From positions 1 through 64,000 of IMG/VR virus record IMGVR_UViG_3300023170_000023: a DNA stretch of 64,000 bases. One strand, 5' to 3'. The translations under genes were made by a program, and so were the position numbers. How positions within the stretch are numbered: the first letter of the stretch is position 1; each line of letters starts with the position of its first letter. The notes below the pieces were generated by a model. That model ran no database searches, was not told the origin of the DNA, and worked only from the letters and a program-made list of their open reading frames with translations. This document shows, one piece after another, positions 49,966 through 62,592 of this stretch. Source of the DNA: a virus.

Positions 49966-50545
49966 ACAGAATCTCAACCAATTCGTTCTTCGATTGGAGT
50001 TTTGTGTTAAACGTAGTTTCTACATTTCTTTTAAAAGAGATATCAAAACTTTCGGGTACATTCGGCATTTCAACAACAATCTGACAAGACGGATTTCCTG
50101 ACGGATCGTAAGTATCATAATCTAAGATTAATTTATCGTAATCACAATAGTCTTTCCAGAATACAGCAAGATCATACGACTTGGCAAAATCTATTTTTCC
50201 ATTAGTTCCGTATAACTGATATACAACTGCTCTTCCTGTTTGTTTCAAATCGTTGGTAGAATTAGAAGTGACTGTTTCTTTTTCCGCAGCAACATAAACT
50301 CCTTCCGCAACCGTCAATCTATGTTGATCAAAGTCTGAGTTAGCAGTAGTCTTTTTAATCAATTCTGCATGCAAGTAGAGATTACGTGCCAGTTGATCTT
50401 TATCGGTTTTTATCCTTTCGAATTGAACCCTGCTTCCTCTCGCTCCTAAAAACTTAACTATAGGTACTCCTGCCGCTAACTGTGTGTTAGCGGTAATATC
50501 AGAAGCAAAGTTAGGATTATAAACTGGATCTGGTAAATATATCAT
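49961..50545 (-). CDS. Unrecognised baseplate-region protein (194 aa)
   Basis: A 194-residue protein between the beta-helix spike and gp25. I do not recognise it. It starts with IYLPDPVYNPNF and has a mid-region GVYVAAEKETVTSNSTNDL. The second half is rich in Tyr and Asp (FWKDYCDYDKLILDYDTYDPSG). No signal peptide or membrane segment is visible. It overlaps the spike gene by 4 bases (ATGA type), which indicates translational coupling. Position suggests a spike-tip, hub or chaperone function, but no PAAR-type tip motif is visible. Confidence 0.6.
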   Translation of the reverse strand: MIYLPDPVYNPNFASDITANTQLAAGVPIVKFLGARGSRVQFERIKTDKDQLARNLYLHAELIKKTTANSDFDQHRLTVAEGVYVAAEKETVTSNSTNDLKQTGRAVVYQLYGTNGKIDFAKSYDLAVFWKDYCDYDKLILDYDTYDPSGNPSCQIVVEMPNVPESFDISFKRNVETTFNTKLQSKNELVEILL

Positions 50546-52023
50546 ACTAAGAATCTCTTGCTTTTCACGTCTGCGGGGTTATTGCCCAAAGGTTTGTAAC
50601 CAAATTTCTTCTGTTTAGATCTATTTGAAGTTCTACCAATCTTACCATCAAACGCTTTTGCGAAATCAGTAGACAGTAAACCTTCTGCGACAAGATTGTT
50701 CGTAAACTCTTTGTTATTGAAATTAGCGGTGTCCCGGATCTTAGAACGGATCTCATCAATAGTAGGATCACGATCAAACAAGTCTTTGTAATCGTCCGTT
50801 TTCAGAATCTTAGAAACGAGAGAGTTTGGATCTTCGATGTCCGTATCCACAATTACCTTACGAATAGCAAAGTTACTCACTGCCAAGTGTGGAGCAATAA
50901 GTTCTGTTGTCGGTTCTGGTGCATCCGGTGGAGTTTCGATAAAAGGGAAAATAGTTTCATACTTCTCCGGTTCTTTCACACTAGGCGCGGAACCAGAACC
51001 ATTACTATGAGTTTTTGCTTTACCAGCACCTTCAGCATATTTGGCAAAGGGAGTTTGTCCTGCTTTGTTTGCGAAATCAGCAGTGATTGCCTCTGCCGCT
51101 CGACCCACGAGAGTTCCGTAGAAAGTCGTACCGCCGTTTCCTGCGCCTTCTGGAGGTCCAGAATAGACTTTACCGTAGTGATCGACCAATGTGCCACCGA
51201 TGGTTCCTTTCGTCCCCAGAACAGACACAGTGATTCCTGTGATGTTCGTGGTCTCTGATGATGCTGCCCACTCACTCTCTGCCGTAGTCACAAGACGATT
51301 CCCAGAAGTGAGTTCTACATCACCCTCTACCCAATTGTTCTGATCCCCCTTGACAAACACATAATTATCTGATAATAAGGTTTGTGTGTGAGTTCCAACA
51401 ACTCGACTGCTCTGCGAACCCTTGATCGTTGAATTATGGTTGTTATCGAATGTACCTGTATAACTACCATGCACTGCTTCTTCTTTATTACCAGCAACGT
51501 CAACGTTAATGTTTCCATCTACGGTGAGATTATAGTCTCCGGTGACTCGAACGTTGAGATTGCCTTTGTAAACAAGGTTACCCTCACCCTCAACGATAAC
51601 AGTGTGGTCTCCCCCAGTGACTTCGACCTTTTTATTAACCGCAGAAAATAGCACAGATCCATCAGCACGAAGTTCTAATCCTGCTCCCGTTCGATGTTTC
51701 ATGATAATTCGTTCACCACCGGGAGTGTCATCTATTTCCCATGAATGTCCTGCGGGTGTTTGCTGAACCTGATTGAACGGATATTGAGACGGTTTCTGAT
51801 CCGGAAGTTCTATCGAGACGTTTTTATCGCCACCACCACTAAACAATTGTGTAGTGGTTTCGCCTTTTGCTGCCTTATTAGTAGAAGTTCCAAAATAATA
51901 ATCTTGTGTAGGGTATTGACCACTAGCGTCAGAGAATCCTGTTTGAGGTACTCCGAGTGTGTCTTCCTGACCTTCGCCCAGTTTCTGGATACGTGTTACT
52001 ATATTATCTTCTTTGGTTGTCAT
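50542..52023 (-). CDS. Central spike beta-helix protein (separate gp5 C-terminal needle)
   Basis: Residues about 75-130 (QYPFNQVQQTPAGHSWEIDDTPGGERI, then MKHRTGAGLELRADGSVLFS) match the start of the needle part of T4 gp5 and VgrG proteins. Residues about 130-290 hold octapeptide-like V-x-G repeats (VTGGDHTVIVEG, VRVTGDYNLTVDG, VDVAGNKEEAVHG), the signature of the triple-stranded beta-helix. T4 gp5 has OB-fold, lysozyme and needle in one 575-residue chain; here the needle is a separate 493-residue gene. The C-terminal 200 residues (about 300-493) are not beta-helical and could hold a tip or chaperone-like domain. It overlaps both neighbours by 4 bases. Confidence 0.85.
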   Translation of the reverse strand: MTTKEDNIVTRIQKLGEGQEDTLGVPQTGFSDASGQYPTQDYYFGTSTNKAAKGETTTQLFSGGGDKNVSIELPDQKPSQYPFNQVQQTPAGHSWEIDDTPGGERIIMKHRTGAGLELRADGSVLFSAVNKKVEVTGGDHTVIVEGEGNLVYKGNLNVRVTGDYNLTVDGNINVDVAGNKEEAVHGSYTGTFDNNHNSTIKGSQSSRVVGTHTQTLLSDNYVFVKGDQNNWVEGDVELTSGNRLVTTAESEWAASSETTNITGITVSVLGTKGTIGGTLVDHYGKVYSGPPEGAGNGGTTFYGTLVGRAAEAITADFANKAGQTPFAKYAEGAGKAKTHSNGSGSAPSVKEPEKYETIFPFIETPPDAPEPTTELIAPHLAVSNFAIRKVIVDTDIEDPNSLVSKILKTDDYKDLFDRDPTIDEIRSKIRDTANFNNKEFTNNLVAEGLLSTDFAKAFDGKIGRTSNRSKQKKFGYKPLGNNPADVKSKRFLV

Positions 52024-53879
52024 TCTGGTATCCTTGTTGTGACAAGTTCTGACGGTGAGAAAGGACCTCTAGCAGAGGGATCTTCGAACAATGATTTTTT
52101 GTTGAACAAATCATCGACATAATCTCTTACATCAAAACCCGGATCTTCTTCTAAAACGTCTATATCATTATGTCCAAGGATTTGTCCTCCCGGATATCGA
52201 GAATAGAAGGCAGCACAAAAAGCATTAAACGTATTCATTTGTGCAAGAGTCAAAGATGACACCCCTCGATAAGAACCCGGAAACGCAGTACCTGAAGGAG
52301 CATTGATACCACCGACAAAAACTAGTCCGATGCTATACTCGTCATGTCCGTTTACATTAGCGTGTTCGCCTTGTTTGTTGACTGGTCTGCCCCTTTGTAA
52401 TGAACCGTCTCTTCGAATAACATAATGATATCCTATACCACTAAGACCTAGATCAATATGAATTTGATTAATCTCTTCTGATCCAATATTCTTATTCGTG
52501 TAAGTATCAGTCCAGTGTACAATAACTTCTGTTACTTGACGAGAGATAGAGTTAATATCCGCTTGCAATTCTTCTACTGAAGACACATACGAAAACTTCG
52601 CTCCCTTGTCTTCGAAATTTAAAGTAGAACTAAGATCAAACGGATCCGCAAAAGCAGACTCTTCATTCTCTATTACCACACTTCCTGCAATGGTTGTGTT
52701 AAGGTCTTCTAATCCTGCCCTAACTTCATCTGGGGTTTTACCGGAAGATTTAGAGATAATGTCAACCGCTTTATCTCTTTCCGCTTGATCTCCTTGTGCC
52801 AGAGTAATAACCTCGTCCCTATCTAAAGAAGTTAGATTGGGTGCAAGACTTCTCATGATAGTGGTACCTTGCCCGGTTTGTTTTTCCGTAAATCCCTGAA
52901 GCAACCCTGACTTGGAATCGCTAACAATGGTACCTACCGTTTTATCATAAGCATCTCTGCCTTTTGATAATTGGTTTAAATTATCATCTAATCCTTTTTT
53001 AGCATCTGAAAAAACAGACTCTCCGATTTTTCCTGTTTGTTCCTGAAAGTCTGTTTTGAGTTTGTCTTGGTTAATGTCAATATTTTGCGTGAGACCATCT
53101 GCAACTTTGGTAACCGACCCTTCGACAGCAGAGGTTAAAGCAGCACCTTGACTTTGAAGTGCTGTAACTGCGTCGGCACCGCTTGCCACCCCTGCTAAAT
53201 TTTTTCCAACATCACTAGCAGCGGCAGTAGCACCCGCAGGCAACGAACCCAAACCTGACACTGCATCATTGATCGCACCCTCAGCGGTTGCTGCAAGATC
53301 ATTTGCCTTTGCGGTAAGTTCATTCAGTGCGTCTGCACCGGGAAACTTGCCTAGATTCCCCTTTGCTTTTTCAAGCAAACTCAACTGTCCTTTCGGCATC
53401 ACATTACCAGCAATCTTTTGTACGTATCCGTCAAAAACTTGCAACCCGGTGACTTTGGCAAGCATAGCATTAATAGATTCATCTATTTGAGAACTAGGAT
53501 CAATTGAAGACGATATCGGATAAACATTTCCATCAGAATCCGGGTCACTCCAAGCAATAGCAATCTTGACTGCACTTTTTGTTTTTGCTGGTAGAGAACC
53601 AAAGTCGTTTACTGCTCCTTCGAGGGCAGACAACTGATCAGTGACCACCCCTTCAACTGCACCCGCATTCAATTTACCGGACACATCTTTCGTTAGATTC
53701 GTAACACTCTGAATACCACCATTAATTTCGCCTGTAACCTGCCCCACCTTTGTCTCGGTTGCATTAGCAAAAGAGGTTTGAGCATTTGTCGCAGCATTTT
53801 TAACACTACCTTCATACGCATCATTTACAGAGGCAACCGTCTGGTTTAGATTAGTTTTTATTGTTTCTTTAGTTGTCAT
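52020..53879 (-). CDS. Virion-associated N-acetylmuramoyl-L-alanine amidase (Amidase_2/PGRP-like) with long N-terminal region
   Basis: Residues about 448-592 form an Amidase_2 (T7 lysozyme/AmpD type) domain. The zinc ligands are His455 (IVHWTD), His570 (ILGHNDID) and Asp579 (EEDPGF). The conserved tyrosine is Tyr484 (GIGYHYVIRRDG), and GEHANVNG at 505-512 also matches the family. The family's active-site Lys, two residues before the third ligand, is Glu577 here. Residues 1-390 are Ala/Ser/Gly-rich and probably helical, with repeats such as GAINDAVSGLGSLPAG. It lies between the OB-fold/lysozyme-like gene and the spike, overlapping each by 4 bases. It is therefore probably carried on the hub and cuts peptidoglycan stem peptides during entry. 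Confidence 0.85.
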   Translation of the reverse strand: MTTKETIKTNLNQTVASVNDAYEGSVKNAATNAQTSFANATETKVGQVTGEINGGIQSVTNLTKDVSGKLNAGAVEGVVTDQLSALEGAVNDFGSLPAKTKSAVKIAIAWSDPDSDGNVYPISSSIDPSSQIDESINAMLAKVTGLQVFDGYVQKIAGNVMPKGQLSLLEKAKGNLGKFPGADALNELTAKANDLAATAEGAINDAVSGLGSLPAGATAAASDVGKNLAGVASGADAVTALQSQGAALTSAVEGSVTKVADGLTQNIDINQDKLKTDFQEQTGKIGESVFSDAKKGLDDNLNQLSKGRDAYDKTVGTIVSDSKSGLLQGFTEKQTGQGTTIMRSLAPNLTSLDRDEVITLAQGDQAERDKAVDIISKSSGKTPDEVRAGLEDLNTTIAGSVVIENEESAFADPFDLSSTLNFEDKGAKFSYVSSVEELQADINSISRQVTEVIVHWTDTYTNKNIGSEEINQIHIDLGLSGIGYHYVIRRDGSLQRGRPVNKQGEHANVNGHDEYSIGLVFVGGINAPSGTAFPGSYRGVSSLTLAQMNTFNAFCAAFYSRYPGGQILGHNDIDVLEEDPGFDVRDYVDDLFNKKSLFEDPSARGPFSPSELVTTRIPE

Positions 53880-54745
53880 GCGAACACCTCTTCAAAGGCA
53901 TTTTCTGATTTAGACAAGGGGTTTTGTATATCAGATTTAATATAAAATTTAGTCACGATGTTAGATGCTTCTTCTATAGTTTTTGCTTGAAGAAGTTTTT
54001 TGTTTGCCAAGTTTTGTGTTGTCCTGAGTTCGTAAATAACAAATTGAAGTTGAGTTGAATAATTTTTCCAATCTACTTTGGGTTGGAAAAGGGAACCGAA
54101 TTGAATAAGACGATTGTACCTGTTGCCTTTTAAACGACTCCATGCAGCAATCCCTACACCGTCACCTTGAAACCCATCGACAGGAAACGTTTCGAAGTTT
54201 GATGCTGCTTCTAAGTTACCCGTGATTGCAGCACTCTGTAAAGGAGTGTAACCATTATCTATAAAAAATTTAAGAGACTGACTTCTCCTTCTTGCTACTG
54301 AGGTACCTGTTCTAGAAGTATCATTGTCAATATTGATTGTAACAACATTTTGGATTTTTTCTTGGTCATAATTAAAAGACGTTAGACTATTTCCTACATT
54401 TCTTTGAACTTCGGTAGGAAGTTCGATACGAGGAAAACTTCCTAATATTAAAGGTAACTGAGAAGTTTTACCGTCTAAAAAAACACCGAACACAAAAGAC
54501 CCAGCAGACAACTGCGCAATTCTACCATACCCAGAAATACCACCTTCTGTGTTAGGAATTAACACCTGTGCCCAAGGAAGATCTGACTCTGAGATGTCAC
54601 CAGTATACAGGTTATGTACACCGTAGATTCGAATTCGAACTCTACCCTCAAACCCAGCAGGAGGTTGTGCGTTGACCACCGTTGCAACAAACCAACGAGT
54701 GTCGTCTCCATAAAATTCTTTTGGTAATGAATAAGGATATATCAT
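53876..54745 (-). CDS. gp5: Baseplate hub gp5-like protein: OB-fold plus degenerate phage tail lysozyme domain
   Basis: Residues about 17-105 match the OB-fold of T4 gp5 (FEGRVRIRIYGVHN; ESDLPWAQVLIPNTEGGIS; FGVFLDGKTSQLPLILGSF), which plugs the tube between the gp27 trimer and the needle. Residues about 153-280 match the phage tail lysozyme family (PF18013 type): FFIDNGYTPLQSAAITGNLEA, DGVGIAAWS and QLQFVIYEL. In active members the sequence GNLxxES gives the catalytic Glu; here it is GNLEAAS, with Ala181 in that place and Glu179 two residues earlier. Murein hydrolysis may therefore be lost or displaced, and the next gene supplies an amidase. It has 289 residues and no needle. It overlaps gp27 and the amidase gene by 4 bases each. 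Confidence 0.82.
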   Translation of the reverse strand: MIYPYSLPKEFYGDDTRWFVATVVNAQPPAGFEGRVRIRIYGVHNLYTGDISESDLPWAQVLIPNTEGGISGYGRIAQLSAGSFVFGVFLDGKTSQLPLILGSFPRIELPTEVQRNVGNSLTSFNYDQEKIQNVVTINIDNDTSRTGTSVARRRSQSLKFFIDNGYTPLQSAAITGNLEAASNFETFPVDGFQGDGVGIAAWSRLKGNRYNRLIQFGSLFQPKVDWKNYSTQLQFVIYELRTTQNLANKKLLQAKTIEEASNIVTKFYIKSDIQNPLSKSENAFEEVFA

Positions 54746-59123: not shown

Positions 59124-59708
59124 ATGAGTAACTTGTTCGCAACAGTAGAAAGAGAAGCATTCCGTGCGGGGATCACTCCTCGTACAGCACAGTCTCGTAA
59201 ATGGTTCAGAAAAAAAGTTCAGAACATGAGAGGTATCAGTAGACGATCTTTAATGCGAGAAGAAGAAATTATCATGAGAAATCGTGGTGGTGTCGGTGGA
59301 ATGTATATGTTCTTTTATGATCCCAAAACTAAAGACAAACTTCCATACTACGATAATTTTCCTCTCATCATTTTTGTAAAAGGTACTAAAGGTGGGTTCT
59401 ACGGATTGAATTTGCACTACTTACCTATGACACTAAGAGCAAAGTTTTTAGACGGACTGATGGACCAAACCAGCAACAAAAAGTTTGATGATTCAACAAG
59501 GTTTGATTTGTCGTATAGTTACTTGAAATCAGCAGCGAAGATGAAATATTTCAAACCTTGTTTTAAAAAATATTTGACTTCGCATGTTGAAGGAAGACTA
59601 GCAATGGTTCCTGCACCAGAGTGGGAGATTGCAACATTCTTACCAACTGCTCAATGGTCCAAAGCATCACAAGGAAAAGTATATGCAGATTCTAGGAGCA
59701 TGATATGA
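59124..59708 (+). CDS. gp2: Probable DNA end protector protein gp2
   Basis: A 194-residue, basic protein starting five bases after gp4. Its N-terminal region REAFRAGITPRTAQSRKWFRKK and the central YDPKTKDKLPYYDNFPLIIF followed by GGFYGLNLHYLP resemble phage proteins annotated as DNA end protector gp2. In T4, gene 2 also lies next to gene 4. gp2 binds packaged DNA ends and protects them from RecBCD. T4 gp2 is longer (274 residues). The assignment rests on motif resemblance and gene order, so it is moderate. It overlaps gp54 by 4 bases. Confidence 0.6.
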   Translation: MSNLFATVEREAFRAGITPRTAQSRKWFRKKVQNMRGISRRSLMREEEIIMRNRGGVGGMYMFFYDPKTKDKLPYYDNFPLIIFVKGTKGGFYGLNLHYLPMTLRAKFLDGLMDQTSNKKFDDSTRFDLSYSYLKSAAKMKYFKPCFKKYLTSHVEGRLAMVPAPEWEIATFLPTAQWSKASQGKVYADSRSMI

Positions 59709-60427
59709 CACAGCGTATCGACGATTTATTCTCGGAGATTAGTCTTGCTGGTGGTGCTGCCATGAACAACTTGTGGCAAGTTAAACTACCAAGTTTAGGT
59801 GCTTACGAGTCTAGAAGTTTAAACCTTTTGTGTGTAGCAACAAGTGTGCCCGGAAGAGCAATGAACGGAACTGAAGTTCAATACGGACTGCCAAGGGTTA
59901 ACGTAGTCAACGGGTTTGGTGTCGCTCCTATACAAATGTCTTTCTTAGTTTTGAATGACGGTATGATTTTAGAGTATTTTCACAACTGGCAGGCACAGAT
60001 TGTTGATCCAAACACTTATGCTCTAGGATACTACAAAGATTATACCCGTCGAATAGACATCGATGTACTCAAAAAGGGTCTCACGCAATCCGTTATTAAA
60101 AAGCAATTCAAGTTACCAATCCCTACAGCAATCAAAAACAGATTACCAAACATCGGACCTATCAACTTCAGACAAGGTGAGTTCGATTTACAAATTGGTC
60201 TGGATGATCAAATCATATATTCTTGGGTGTTAGAAGATGCATATCCATCTATTGTAAACGCGATAGCACTAGACAACGCGCCAAGATCAGAGTTTATGCA
60301 GATCGATGTAGAGTTCACATACAAGGACTGGAGAACATCGGTTGGACAAGAAGCGTCGAAAGGAGACATTTTCGGCAAAGCAATAAATACGGTTTTTGAC
60401 AAATTGACTGATAAATTAGGATTTTAA
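59705..60427 (+). CDS. gp54: Baseplate tail-tube initiator gp54
   Basis: A tube-protein-like fold of the T4 gp54/gp19 family: AAMNNLWQVKLPSLGAYESRSLNLL at about 18-42, SVPGRAMNGTEVQYGLPRVN, VLNDGMILEYFHNWQAQIVD, and near the C-terminus VLEDAYPSIVNAIALDN followed by QIDVEFTYKDWR. gp54 sits on gp48 and starts polymerisation of the tail tube. At 240 residues it is shorter than T4 gp54 (320). It lies before gp26, gp51 and the tape measure, so all tube-initiation functions are grouped here. An AATAAATA late-promoter-like element (60382-60389) inside its 3' end may serve gp26. Confidence 0.82.
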   Translation: MTQRIDDLFSEISLAGGAAMNNLWQVKLPSLGAYESRSLNLLCVATSVPGRAMNGTEVQYGLPRVNVVNGFGVAPIQMSFLVLNDGMILEYFHNWQAQIVDPNTYALGYYKDYTRRIDIDVLKKGLTQSVIKKQFKLPIPTAIKNRLPNIGPINFRQGEFDLQIGLDDQIIYSWVLEDAYPSIVNAIALDNAPRSEFMQIDVEFTYKDWRTSVGQEASKGDIFGKAINTVFDKLTDKLGF

Positions 60428-60429
60428 TA

Positions 60430-61134
60430 ATGGCATTACCCAAACTTAATGATTCACCCAAATACACGATGACTATTCCTTCAACAGGGAAGAAAATTAA
60501 ATTTAGACCTTACTTAGTAAAAGAAGAAAAAGTTCTTTTGATGGCGGTAGAGTCTCAGGACATGAAAACTGGTCTTTCTGCAGTAGTGGACACAATTTCC
60601 GCATGTTGTCAAGATGAAATTAATGTCGATAGACTAACCACCTTTGATGTTGAATACATGTTCACTCAAATGAGGGCAAAATCTTCGGGAGAATCCGTTA
60701 AGATAGGTTTGTCGTGTAAAAAGTGCGAACAATTAAATGAAGTAGATGTTACTTTAGACGATTTGAAGGTCAATGTGCCGAAAGTAGAAAAAGTACATCC
60801 GTTGAATGATGAAATTACCATCGAATTACGATATCCTCCGTATAGCGTTTTTCTAGACATGGATTTCGAAGATGGTGATGATGCGGAAAACACTTTTTTC
60901 ATCGCAGGAAAGTGTATCGATGCAATTCAATATGACGATGAAAGAATTGAGTGTGATGATGTGCCAACAGAAGAATTGACAGAGTTTTTAGAATCCATGA
61001 CAAAAGAACAATTTAAAATCATCATGGACTTTGTCGAAACGATGCCAAAACTTGAGAAGAATGTAAAGTACGACTGTATTCATTGCAGTCACAAGAACAC
61101 GTTAAAACTAGAGGGTATGCAAAGTTTTTTTTAA
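60430..61134 (+). CDS. gp26: Baseplate hub/tail chaperone gp26
   Basis: A T4 gp26-type protein (family PF12322): the N-terminus ALPKLNDSPKYTMTIPSTGKKI, then FRPYLVKEEKVLLMAVES and TTFDVEYMFTQMRAKSSGE at about 75-93. Two Cys pairs, CKKC at about 97-100 and CIHC at about 219-222, suggest a zinc ribbon. It has 234 residues (T4 208). The gene ends in a run of eight T directly before the TAA, and gp51 continues in the -1 frame. The ribosome may therefore make both gp26 and a 296-residue gp26-gp51 fusion. In T4, gp26 and gp51 are needed for hub assembly and are not major virion parts, which fits a chaperone role. Confidence 0.85.
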   Translation: MALPKLNDSPKYTMTIPSTGKKIKFRPYLVKEEKVLLMAVESQDMKTGLSAVVDTISACCQDEINVDRLTTFDVEYMFTQMRAKSSGESVKIGLSCKKCEQLNEVDVTLDDLKVNVPKVEKVHPLNDEITIELRYPPYSVFLDMDFEDGDDAENTFFIAGKCIDAIQYDDERIECDDVPTEELTEFLESMTKEQFKIIMDFVETMPKLEKNVKYDCIHCSHKNTLKLEGMQSFF

Positions 61135-61319
61135 TATGCCTTTCTCATGATACGTTAGTGAATCATTATAAGACTAACTTCGAGTTAATGTATAATGACA
61201 AATATTCGCTAACAGAGTTAAACGATATGATGCCATGGGAAAGGGAAATTTATTTAACCTTGCTTACTCAAAGAATAAAAGAAGAAAACGAGAGAAGAAA
61301 GAATGGCAAACATGGCTGA
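61083..61319 (+). CDS. gp51: Baseplate hub assembly catalyst gp51-like; probably made by -1 frameshift from gp26
   Basis: The conserved part reads LVNHYKTNFELMYNDKYSLTEL then MMPWEREIYLTLLTQRI, as in gp51-type small proteins of T4-like phages. The open frame begins inside gp26. Its only upstream start is a TTG at 61083 without a visible ribosome site, and the first ATG (the Met of FELM) lies inside the conserved region. Across the T8 run at 61125-61132 a -1 slip from gp26 enters this frame at 61131 and adds 62 residues, giving a 296-residue fusion. The functional gp51 part is therefore 61131-61319. It overlaps the start of the tape-measure gene by 17 bases. Confidence 0.72.
   Translation: MQSQEHVKTRGYAKFFLICLSHDTLVNHYKTNFELMYNDKYSLTELNDMMPWEREIYLTLLTQRIKEENERRKNGKHG
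61125..61134 (+). promoter_or_regulatory. Candidate -1 ribosomal frameshift site (T8 run at gp26 stop)
   Basis: Eight T in a row end with the TAA stop of gp26 (AGT TTT TTT TAA). In the -1 frame the ribosome reads TTA ATA TGC and continues into gp51. The T TTT TTT heptamer allows full re-pairing of two tRNA-Phe. A weak hairpin (ATGAT ... ATCAT) lies about 15 bases downstream. Confidence 0.6.
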
Positions 61320-62592
61320 TATTACATTAAGTCTCTCCGGGAGCAATTCCGGAGAAATGCTTAGTGAGATCGCAACTTGGAATGAACTCCAAACAGAGCA
61401 AAACCAAGAAACTCTCGATGTCTTAAAAGATATGAAAGATGTGATGGAGTTAGTATACTATGAAATCGCAAGCATGTTCGAATCTTTGGCGAAGGGATTG
61501 CAATTTGCGAAACTACGATCCACTGATACCCCAGACGTTACCTCAAGATCACCATCGAGTCCTGCTAGTACAGATAATGATAGTGGATTTTCTCTTGCAG
61601 ACTTTTTCAAAACATTAGCAGTAACCCTAACCAAATTCGTCACTATAATTCTTCCTGCCATTCTTGCCGCACTTGGATTGTCTAATCTTGGTCTGACAGG
61701 ATTAGAGTTCAAAGCATTAAAGGGAGTCAAAGAATTTTTCACTACGGAATGGTGGAAAACTAAAACAACACAACTTGCAAATGTCATTAAAAACAATAAA
61801 GCGATTGTTGCGATAAAAGAATTTTTCGGTGAAGGAGGCAAAGGCGGTAAAGTAGGTGCAGTATTAGATGAGGTACTCAAACCTATTAAAGCATTTTTCT
61901 CCTTAGAGGGAGACGGTATTCTTGCCAAAGTGTTCCAAGGTTTAAAAGGGTTTGGTGGAGCATTCACTAAAGTATTAGGAAAAATTTTCTTCCCTATTAG
62001 TTTATTAATGTCTGCCTTTGATGGGTTCTTGGTTGCAAAAGAAGCATCAGCAGAAACTGACGGTAACATAGTTTCTACTATCATAGGATTTATGGGAGGT
62101 TTCGCTGCCTCCTTCTTCGGTTCTCTTATAGATCTCATAAAGAGTGGTATTTCTTGGATCTTAGAAAAAATATTTGGTGAAGGTAACCCGGTATCAGAGT
62201 TTCTCGATAGTTTTTCTGTGGCGGATATTATGATTGATGTTACTTTAGCACTTTCTAGACTAGTCGATGAAATGTGGGAAGGTATTAAATCTTTAATACC
62301 CAGTTGGGATAGTATATCATCATTTTTCAGCGGAGACGATGACGAAGCAACACAAAACATTCGTGCTAGACGAGATGAACTTGCTGCTAAACAAGAAGAA
62401 AAACGTTTAGCGTATATAGAAGAAGCAAATAAGAAATCTGCAGCAATGGATGCGGCGAAAGGAAACACTGTCATTGCTCCGAACAGCAGTACCACAAACG
62501 TATCAAATAATAATTCTAGTTTGACTCTAGGTTCTACACCAAACGCTAATAACGCATCTAATCGAAGGAAGCGTCAAAGAGGCGGCGGATAA
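61303..62592 (+). CDS. Probable tail tape measure protein (gp29-like position)
   Basis: A 429-residue protein following gp54-gp26-gp51, the place of the tape measure in many tailed phages. Residues 1-65 look coiled (LQTEQNQETLDVLKDMKDVM). Two strongly hydrophobic segments lie at about 105-128 (LTKFVTIILPAILAALGL) and 263-285 (IGFMGGFAASFFGSLIDLI). A second coiled region is at about 348-385 (RRDELAAKQEEKRLAYIEEA). The C-terminus has NTVIAPNSSTTNVSNNNSS, a tail common in tape measure proteins, and ends very basic. Sequence similarity to T4 gp29 is not visible to me. The start may be the ATG at 61303 or the one at 61312. Confidence 0.65.
   Translation: MANMADITLSLSGSNSGEMLSEIATWNELQTEQNQETLDVLKDMKDVMELVYYEIASMFESLAKGLQFAKLRSTDTPDVTSRSPSSPASTDNDSGFSLADFFKTLAVTLTKFVTIILPAILAALGLSNLGLTGLEFKALKGVKEFFTTEWWKTKTTQLANVIKNNKAIVAIKEFFGEGGKGGKVGAVLDEVLKPIKAFFSLEGDGILAKVFQGLKGFGGAFTKVLGKIFFPISLLMSAFDGFLVAKEASAETDGNIVSTIIGFMGGFAASFFGSLIDLIKSGISWILEKIFGEGNPVSEFLDSFSVADIMIDVTLALSRLVDEMWEGIKSLIPSWDSISSFFSGDDDEATQNIRARRDELAAKQEEKRLAYIEEANKKSAAMDAAKGNTVIAPNSSTTNVSNNNSSLTLGSTPNANNASNRRKRQRGGG

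Follow-up and report, generated by a model that had tools for sequence, protein, structure and literature searches.

Does the short reading frame behind gp26 of this marine T4-like phage form a gene of its own, or is it the end of gp26 itself? The question arises in a window of 64,000 nt, the whole stretch of DNA that was analysed (positions 1 to 64,000 of IMG/VR record IMGVR_UViG_3300023170_000023), where gp26 ends in a run of T's and a frame known in relatives as gp51 follows in the -1 phase. Cyanophage and vibriophage gp51 proteins have been described as being without about 200 N-terminal residues (Sullivan 2010, PMC3037559). We suggest that these residues seem to be missing because the missing part is gp26, joined to the short frame through a frameshift. 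An earlier note on this DNA had called a -1 programmed frameshift probable. Judged from the sequences of the window and its relatives, a universal slippery heptamer, a constant -1 phase, missing start codons, an upstream Shine-Dalgarno (SD) element and a downstream stem now strongly support a programmed -1 ribosomal frameshift at the end of gp26, which makes the case stronger than it was first put.

The end of gp26 and its neighbours

The features of the locus are collected in Table 1. In profile comparisons the gp26 product matched the PF12322 family at 1e-59 and phrog_150 at 1.9e-62, and its AlphaFold model had a pLDDT of 86. The 3' end of the gene reads GGT ATG CAA AGT TTT TTT TAA, which bears out the earlier report of eight T's at the stop (61125-61132, the T of the stop codon included). 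One base back, reading continues as TTA ATA TGC until a stop at 61317-61319, and the fusion of 234 + 62 = 296 aa (the long form, TAC-NC) is the one that had been predicted from a -1 slip. The peptide LEGMQSFFLICLSHDTLVNHYK spans the junction in this phage's fusion. The extension also matched the C-terminal columns 228-281 of phrog_150 (4e-8), indicating that both parts lie within one protein in some phages; its other match, phrog_634, carries the label "baseplate hub assembly catalyst". The 20,194 codons of the window's 36 genes contain 74 in-phase slippery heptamers, 6 of them TTTTTTN, and the heptamer at the end of gp26 is the sole one that lies within 45 nt of a gene end and opens into a -1 extension of at least 30 codons.

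Table 1. Features at the end of gp26, in window coordinates.
Feature	Position	Strand	Evidence or remark
Tail tube-like protein / tube initiator, upstream of gp26	59705..60427	+	phrog_45 tail tube, 4.7e-27
gp26, short form of tail assembly chaperone (TAC-N), 234 aa	60430..61134	+	stop TAA 61132-61134
Internal SD-like AGAGGG, proposed stimulator	61110..61115	+	9 nt 5' of heptamer; anti-SD energy
Slippery heptamer T_TTT_TTT	61125..61131	+	P and A sites both Phe UUU; gp26 stop directly 3'
-1 frame C-terminal extension ("gp51" in relatives' annotation), 62 aa post-slip	61131..61319	+	phrog_634, 6.8e-25
5' arm of putative stimulatory stem, CCUUUCUCAUG	61139..61149	+	spacer 7 nt past heptamer; fold, covariation
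3' arm of same stem, CAUGGGAAAGG	61234..61244	+	in PWER motif codons; fold, covariation
Probable tape measure protein	61303..62592	+	assigned by position (inference); phrog_1047, 2.5e-5

The gene order had been read as that of lambda, from a tube initiator through the chaperone and its extension to a tape measure. The upstream part of this reading held, since the protein encoded before gp26 matches a tail tube family and resembles pelagiphage proteins annotated as baseplate tail tube initiator. For the downstream part, the ORF is a probable tape measure by position and character only, with similarity to annotated tape measures that is marginal (BLASTP E 0.01-0.09). The ORF downstream of the extension is annotated as a tape measure in HTVC008M and Cr30. 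The candidate in the window has 429 aa, compared with about 490-690 aa for the ORFs of relatives, and there is almost no sequence similarity between them. Elsewhere in the window (50542-54745, minus strand), gp5-like hub/lysozyme parts are seemingly split between the ORFs 50542-52023 and 53876-54745, which flank an ORF with an amidase domain (52020-53879, also minus strand).

Slip site and start codons among relatives

We compared two sets of loci. The first consisted of 80 IMG/VR relatives and 17 named phages (98 loci, 54 after removal of near-duplicates), and the second of 92 loci (41 nonredundant) fetched with gp26 of S-PM2, KVP40 and HTVC008M as queries. The sets have about four phages in common and total about 190 loci, roughly 90 of them nonredundant, from cyanophages, pelagiphages, KVP40-type phages and phages of Rhizobium, Caulobacter, Pseudomonas and Stenotrophomonas. 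T_TTT_TTN was in phase at the end of gp26 in 98/98 loci of the first set (54/54 nonredundant). It was also in phase and intact in 91/92 loci of the second, where the exception, L205, has a premature upstream stop with the heptamer kept (thus 92/92). At every locus read in both sets the gp51 frame lay in the -1 phase, and in the second set the extension had at least 57 codons. The T run and the phase are therefore conserved, as the earlier note had asked of related phages; in most relatives the run is T6 and the next base C, A or G, where the window has T8. The six T's are invariant, and the second Phe-site codon varies among the 54 loci (TTC 26, TTT 23, TTA 3, TTG 2). The first Phe codon is TTT in 54/54, as against 62% of the Phe codons elsewhere in gp26 genes; the codon frequencies multiply to 3e-24, a figure that takes no account of shared descent and should not be read as a probability.

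Vibrio phage K413 (L116:3140-3200) has lost the heptamer and reads TCA CTT TTC AAG TAATGG, with an ATG that overlaps the gp26 stop and opens the extension. It is possible that this lineage exchanged frameshifting for reinitiation.

The absence of a usable gp51 start, as the earlier note had it, is nearly but not literally true of the window. ATG is absent, and a lone TTG at 61083, inside gp26 and without an SD, is open in the -1 frame; it is not conserved among relatives. When the -1 frame was scanned from its last stop through 8 codons beyond the shift, 33/54 nonredundant loci of the first set and 16/41 of the second contained no ATG, GTG or TTG. Overall about 48 nonredundant loci are start-less, several with an in-frame stop immediately 5' of the FF codons. 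Where the -1 frame has no start, conservation of its T's must act on the nucleotides themselves. An ATG, GTG or TTG does occur within 8 codons past the shift in roughly 30-60% of loci (in KVP40 the ATG overlaps the gp26 stop), and at these loci reinitiation may take place.

These starts bear on a rival view in which gp51 would be a small gene in its own right, its translation depending on termination-reinitiation or on a non-ATG start that overlaps gp26. It is so annotated in hundreds of records, the TTG at 61083 is in frame, and KVP40, AF3, Ps15 and S-PM2-type phages do have an ATG at or just past the gp26 stop. However, a separate gene would leave the start-less loci without explanation. In the phages that have the ATG, the heptamer is invariant too, and upstream of both the SD is spaced 9-10 nt from the heptamer and some 20 nt from the ATG. 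In addition, the extension by itself lacks the body that is present in T4 gp51. We consider a separate gene very unlikely, and the reading of this phage's "gp51" as the tail end of the gp26 chaperone appears well supported.

Proposed stimulatory elements around the slip site

The energy of pairing with the anti-SD sequence at the offset of the SD-like AGAGGG averaged -6.0 kcal/mol over the 54 loci, compared with about 0 elsewhere, and 93-94% of loci had a strong match beginning 16-14 nt 5' of the heptamer, versus 8% of background positions. In a synonymous-recoding control the energy was -4.84 kcal/mol, as against -6.07 observed (sd of mean 0.18). Conserved amino acids thus account for most of the SD signal (-4.84 of the -6.07 kcal/mol), though not for the remainder.

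Downstream, the 110-nt fold in the window had an energy of -28.9 kcal/mol (z -4.25), whereas a purely local hairpin within 50-70 nt gave a z of about 0, indicating that the stem in the window is long-range. With the 5' arm placed 4-10 nt after the heptamer, the mean stem score was 21.7, compared with 13.3 for permutations of the extension's synonymous codons (sd of mean 0.54; maximum of 40 permutation means, 14.3), and the excess was limited to that position. The second set repeated it (20.3 versus 13.9; sd 0.46, maximum 14.8). In the clade of the window, CCUUUCUCAUG pairs with CAUGGGAAAGG about 85 nt further 3'. In a sister group (L020, L042, L057, L068, L070 and L072), GUCUAUCUCAC pairs with GUGAGAUAGAC, a partner that lies about 20 nt nearer, and the Arg codon of the PWER motif has changed from AGG to CGN, so that pairing with the old 3' partner is broken. 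P-SSM2- and S-PM2-type cyanophages have local hairpins of 11-14 bp (AGTATGGCTCA/TGAGTCATACT and TGTTCTATAATAAT/ATTATTATAGAACA), and stems were weak in Aer65, HTVC008M, L066 and some others.

Covariation within the window clade is modest (3/12 pairs) but real. C-G has changed to U-A at two pairs, with 9 double-changed cells that were equalled in 0/500 shuffles, and slid versions of the stem pair at 41-70% compared with 85% for the actual stem. RNAalifold recovered the same stem unaided; an Rfam search of the locus returned no match. We think it likely that a regulatory stem has been kept while its partner was re-invented, with the 5' arm fixed 4-10 nt after the slip and the 3' partner having jumped repeatedly (about +17 to +110) within the coding sequence of the extension.

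The -1 frameshift of E. coli dnaX likewise combines a slippery heptamer with an internal SD about 10 nt upstream and a downstream stem. This locus differs in its U6 heptamer, its Phe tRNAs and an unrelated gene, and in a stem whose arms mostly lie far apart and enclose loops of tens of bases.

Slippage of RNA polymerase on the T run could also change the frame, and the T8 of the window would suit it. In most relatives, however, T6 is followed by C, A or G, and T6 is short for slippage by bacterial polymerase. Codon phase, SD and stem are moreover conserved at ribosomal spacings, which makes transcriptional slippage less likely still than a separate gene. That the two ORFs are one gene broken by sequencing error or decay, for which nothing but the homopolymer speaks, is negligible when the same arrangement, with both parts conserved, recurs at 190 loci in independent assemblies and isolates.

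Taken together, we conclude that a single tail assembly chaperone gene is, with high probability, decoded in two ways by a -1 slip at T_TTT_TTT stimulated by the SD and the stem. Frameshifting, its rate and the chaperone role are the parts of this explanation that we infer. The majority of ribosomes would halt at the UAA past U_UUU_UUU and release the 234-aa short form. A fraction would be held by contact with the upstream internal SD and by the stem about 7 nt downstream, and in these both Phe tRNAs would re-pair one base back. The resulting 296-aa long form would carry the 62-residue helical C-terminal extension annotated as gp51. If lambda gpG/gpGT is a guide, both forms may coat the tape measure, with the extension recruiting tube subunits.

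T4 gp26/gp51 and other chaperone systems

In T4, genes 26 and 51 lie on opposite strands, each with its own start, as they do in Aes508, Thanatos-1, JSE and Cronus. The two are therefore not a frameshift pair, and T4 has no frameshift here. In hhalign comparisons, the profile of the fusion matched T4-type gp51 across the junction (probability 99.7, E 1.7e-25, fusion columns 21-289), and its match to T4-type gp26 ended at the junction (probability 99.8, columns 11-237). T4 gp51 and T4 gp26 are themselves related (probability 99.15). T4 gp51 has 249 aa, matching PF12322 over residues 1-201 and phrog_150 over its full length. In predicted structures the elements of the window's gp26 and of T4-type gp51 follow one another in the same order, and gp51 has three further helices at its C-terminus. 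Since the alignment of T4 gp51 covers the whole fusion and that of T4 gp26 covers the short form, T4 encodes the two forms in two genes. The earlier idea that T4 gp26/gp51 correspond to G/GT is thus supported by the short/long pair, by gene position and, weakly, by the fold, and has to give way where the T4 genes are divergent, separate paralogues. Judged from an unrooted comparison, an ancestral frameshifted gene was probably duplicated in the T4 lineage, so that short and long forms came to have a gene each. A vestigial slippery site in T4 gp26 was considered and rejected; the residues EFF are kept there and coded GAG TTC TTT, which is not slippery.

Lambda gpG/gpGT also consists of a short protein and a rarer -1 extension, encoded between the tube and tape measure genes, and there too the short ORF carries a slippery heptamer at its 3' end; Xu, Hendrix and Duda reportedly described this type of frameshift and its homologues in 2004. 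The lambda heptamer is G_GGA_AAG and lies before the stop. Here T_TTT_TTN occupies the very last codons, the sequence is unrelated, and the SD and a movable stem would be the stimulators. The PDB match of highest probability was the HK97 TAC, 2ob9 (0.60 and 0.57, E about 1), which gp26 resembles only weakly in fold. A sequence search of solved structures and a Foldseek search of the T4-type gp51 model against the PDB returned no match, and Phage_TAC_3 reached only 0.018 in HTVC008M. A G/GT-like role would rest on where the gene lies, on its short and long products, on what has been published for T4 and on this weak fold likeness.

That T4 gp26 and gp51 are tail assembly chaperones is credited to Vladimirov 2022 by the papers that cite it (PMC10885494, PMC12846349). 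According to the Adele paper (PMC12846349), the same source reports that TAC-N genes of T4-like phages contain polyT slippery sites. Chaperone identity and T4-like frameshifting are therefore not new in themselves. T4-like phages in which a pair of chaperone genes, one short and the other long, takes the place of a frameshift are ascribed to Vladimirov, Gautam and Davidson 2022 in the PRFect paper. The Adele paper also describes a TAC frameshift with GTTTTT in Vandenendeviridae and Andersonviridae, which belong to a different family from this T4-like phage; there too a polyT slippery site ends TAC-N and the -1 frame is open into TAC-NC. The main text of the PRFect and GeneTack papers does not name the locus, and the literature searched yielded no description of the SD or the stem, so the anatomy of the stimulators seems undescribed.

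The locus supplies a defined stimulator to test, and with it nature provides two solutions to compare for fixing the ratio of short to long chaperone: recoding, used by marine and many other T4-like phages, and the separate genes of T4. It also has consequences for annotation. Most of the 650-680 matching records in the phage collection have gp26 and "gp51" called separately, and many of these "gp51" annotations are wrong. In the records of S-PM2, P-SSM2, HTVC008M and phiM7, a product of about 35-58 aa, annotated from internal starts, goes under the name "gp51" or "baseplate hub assembly catalyst". In those of S-WAM1, Atu_ph04 and VH7D the extension was missed entirely.
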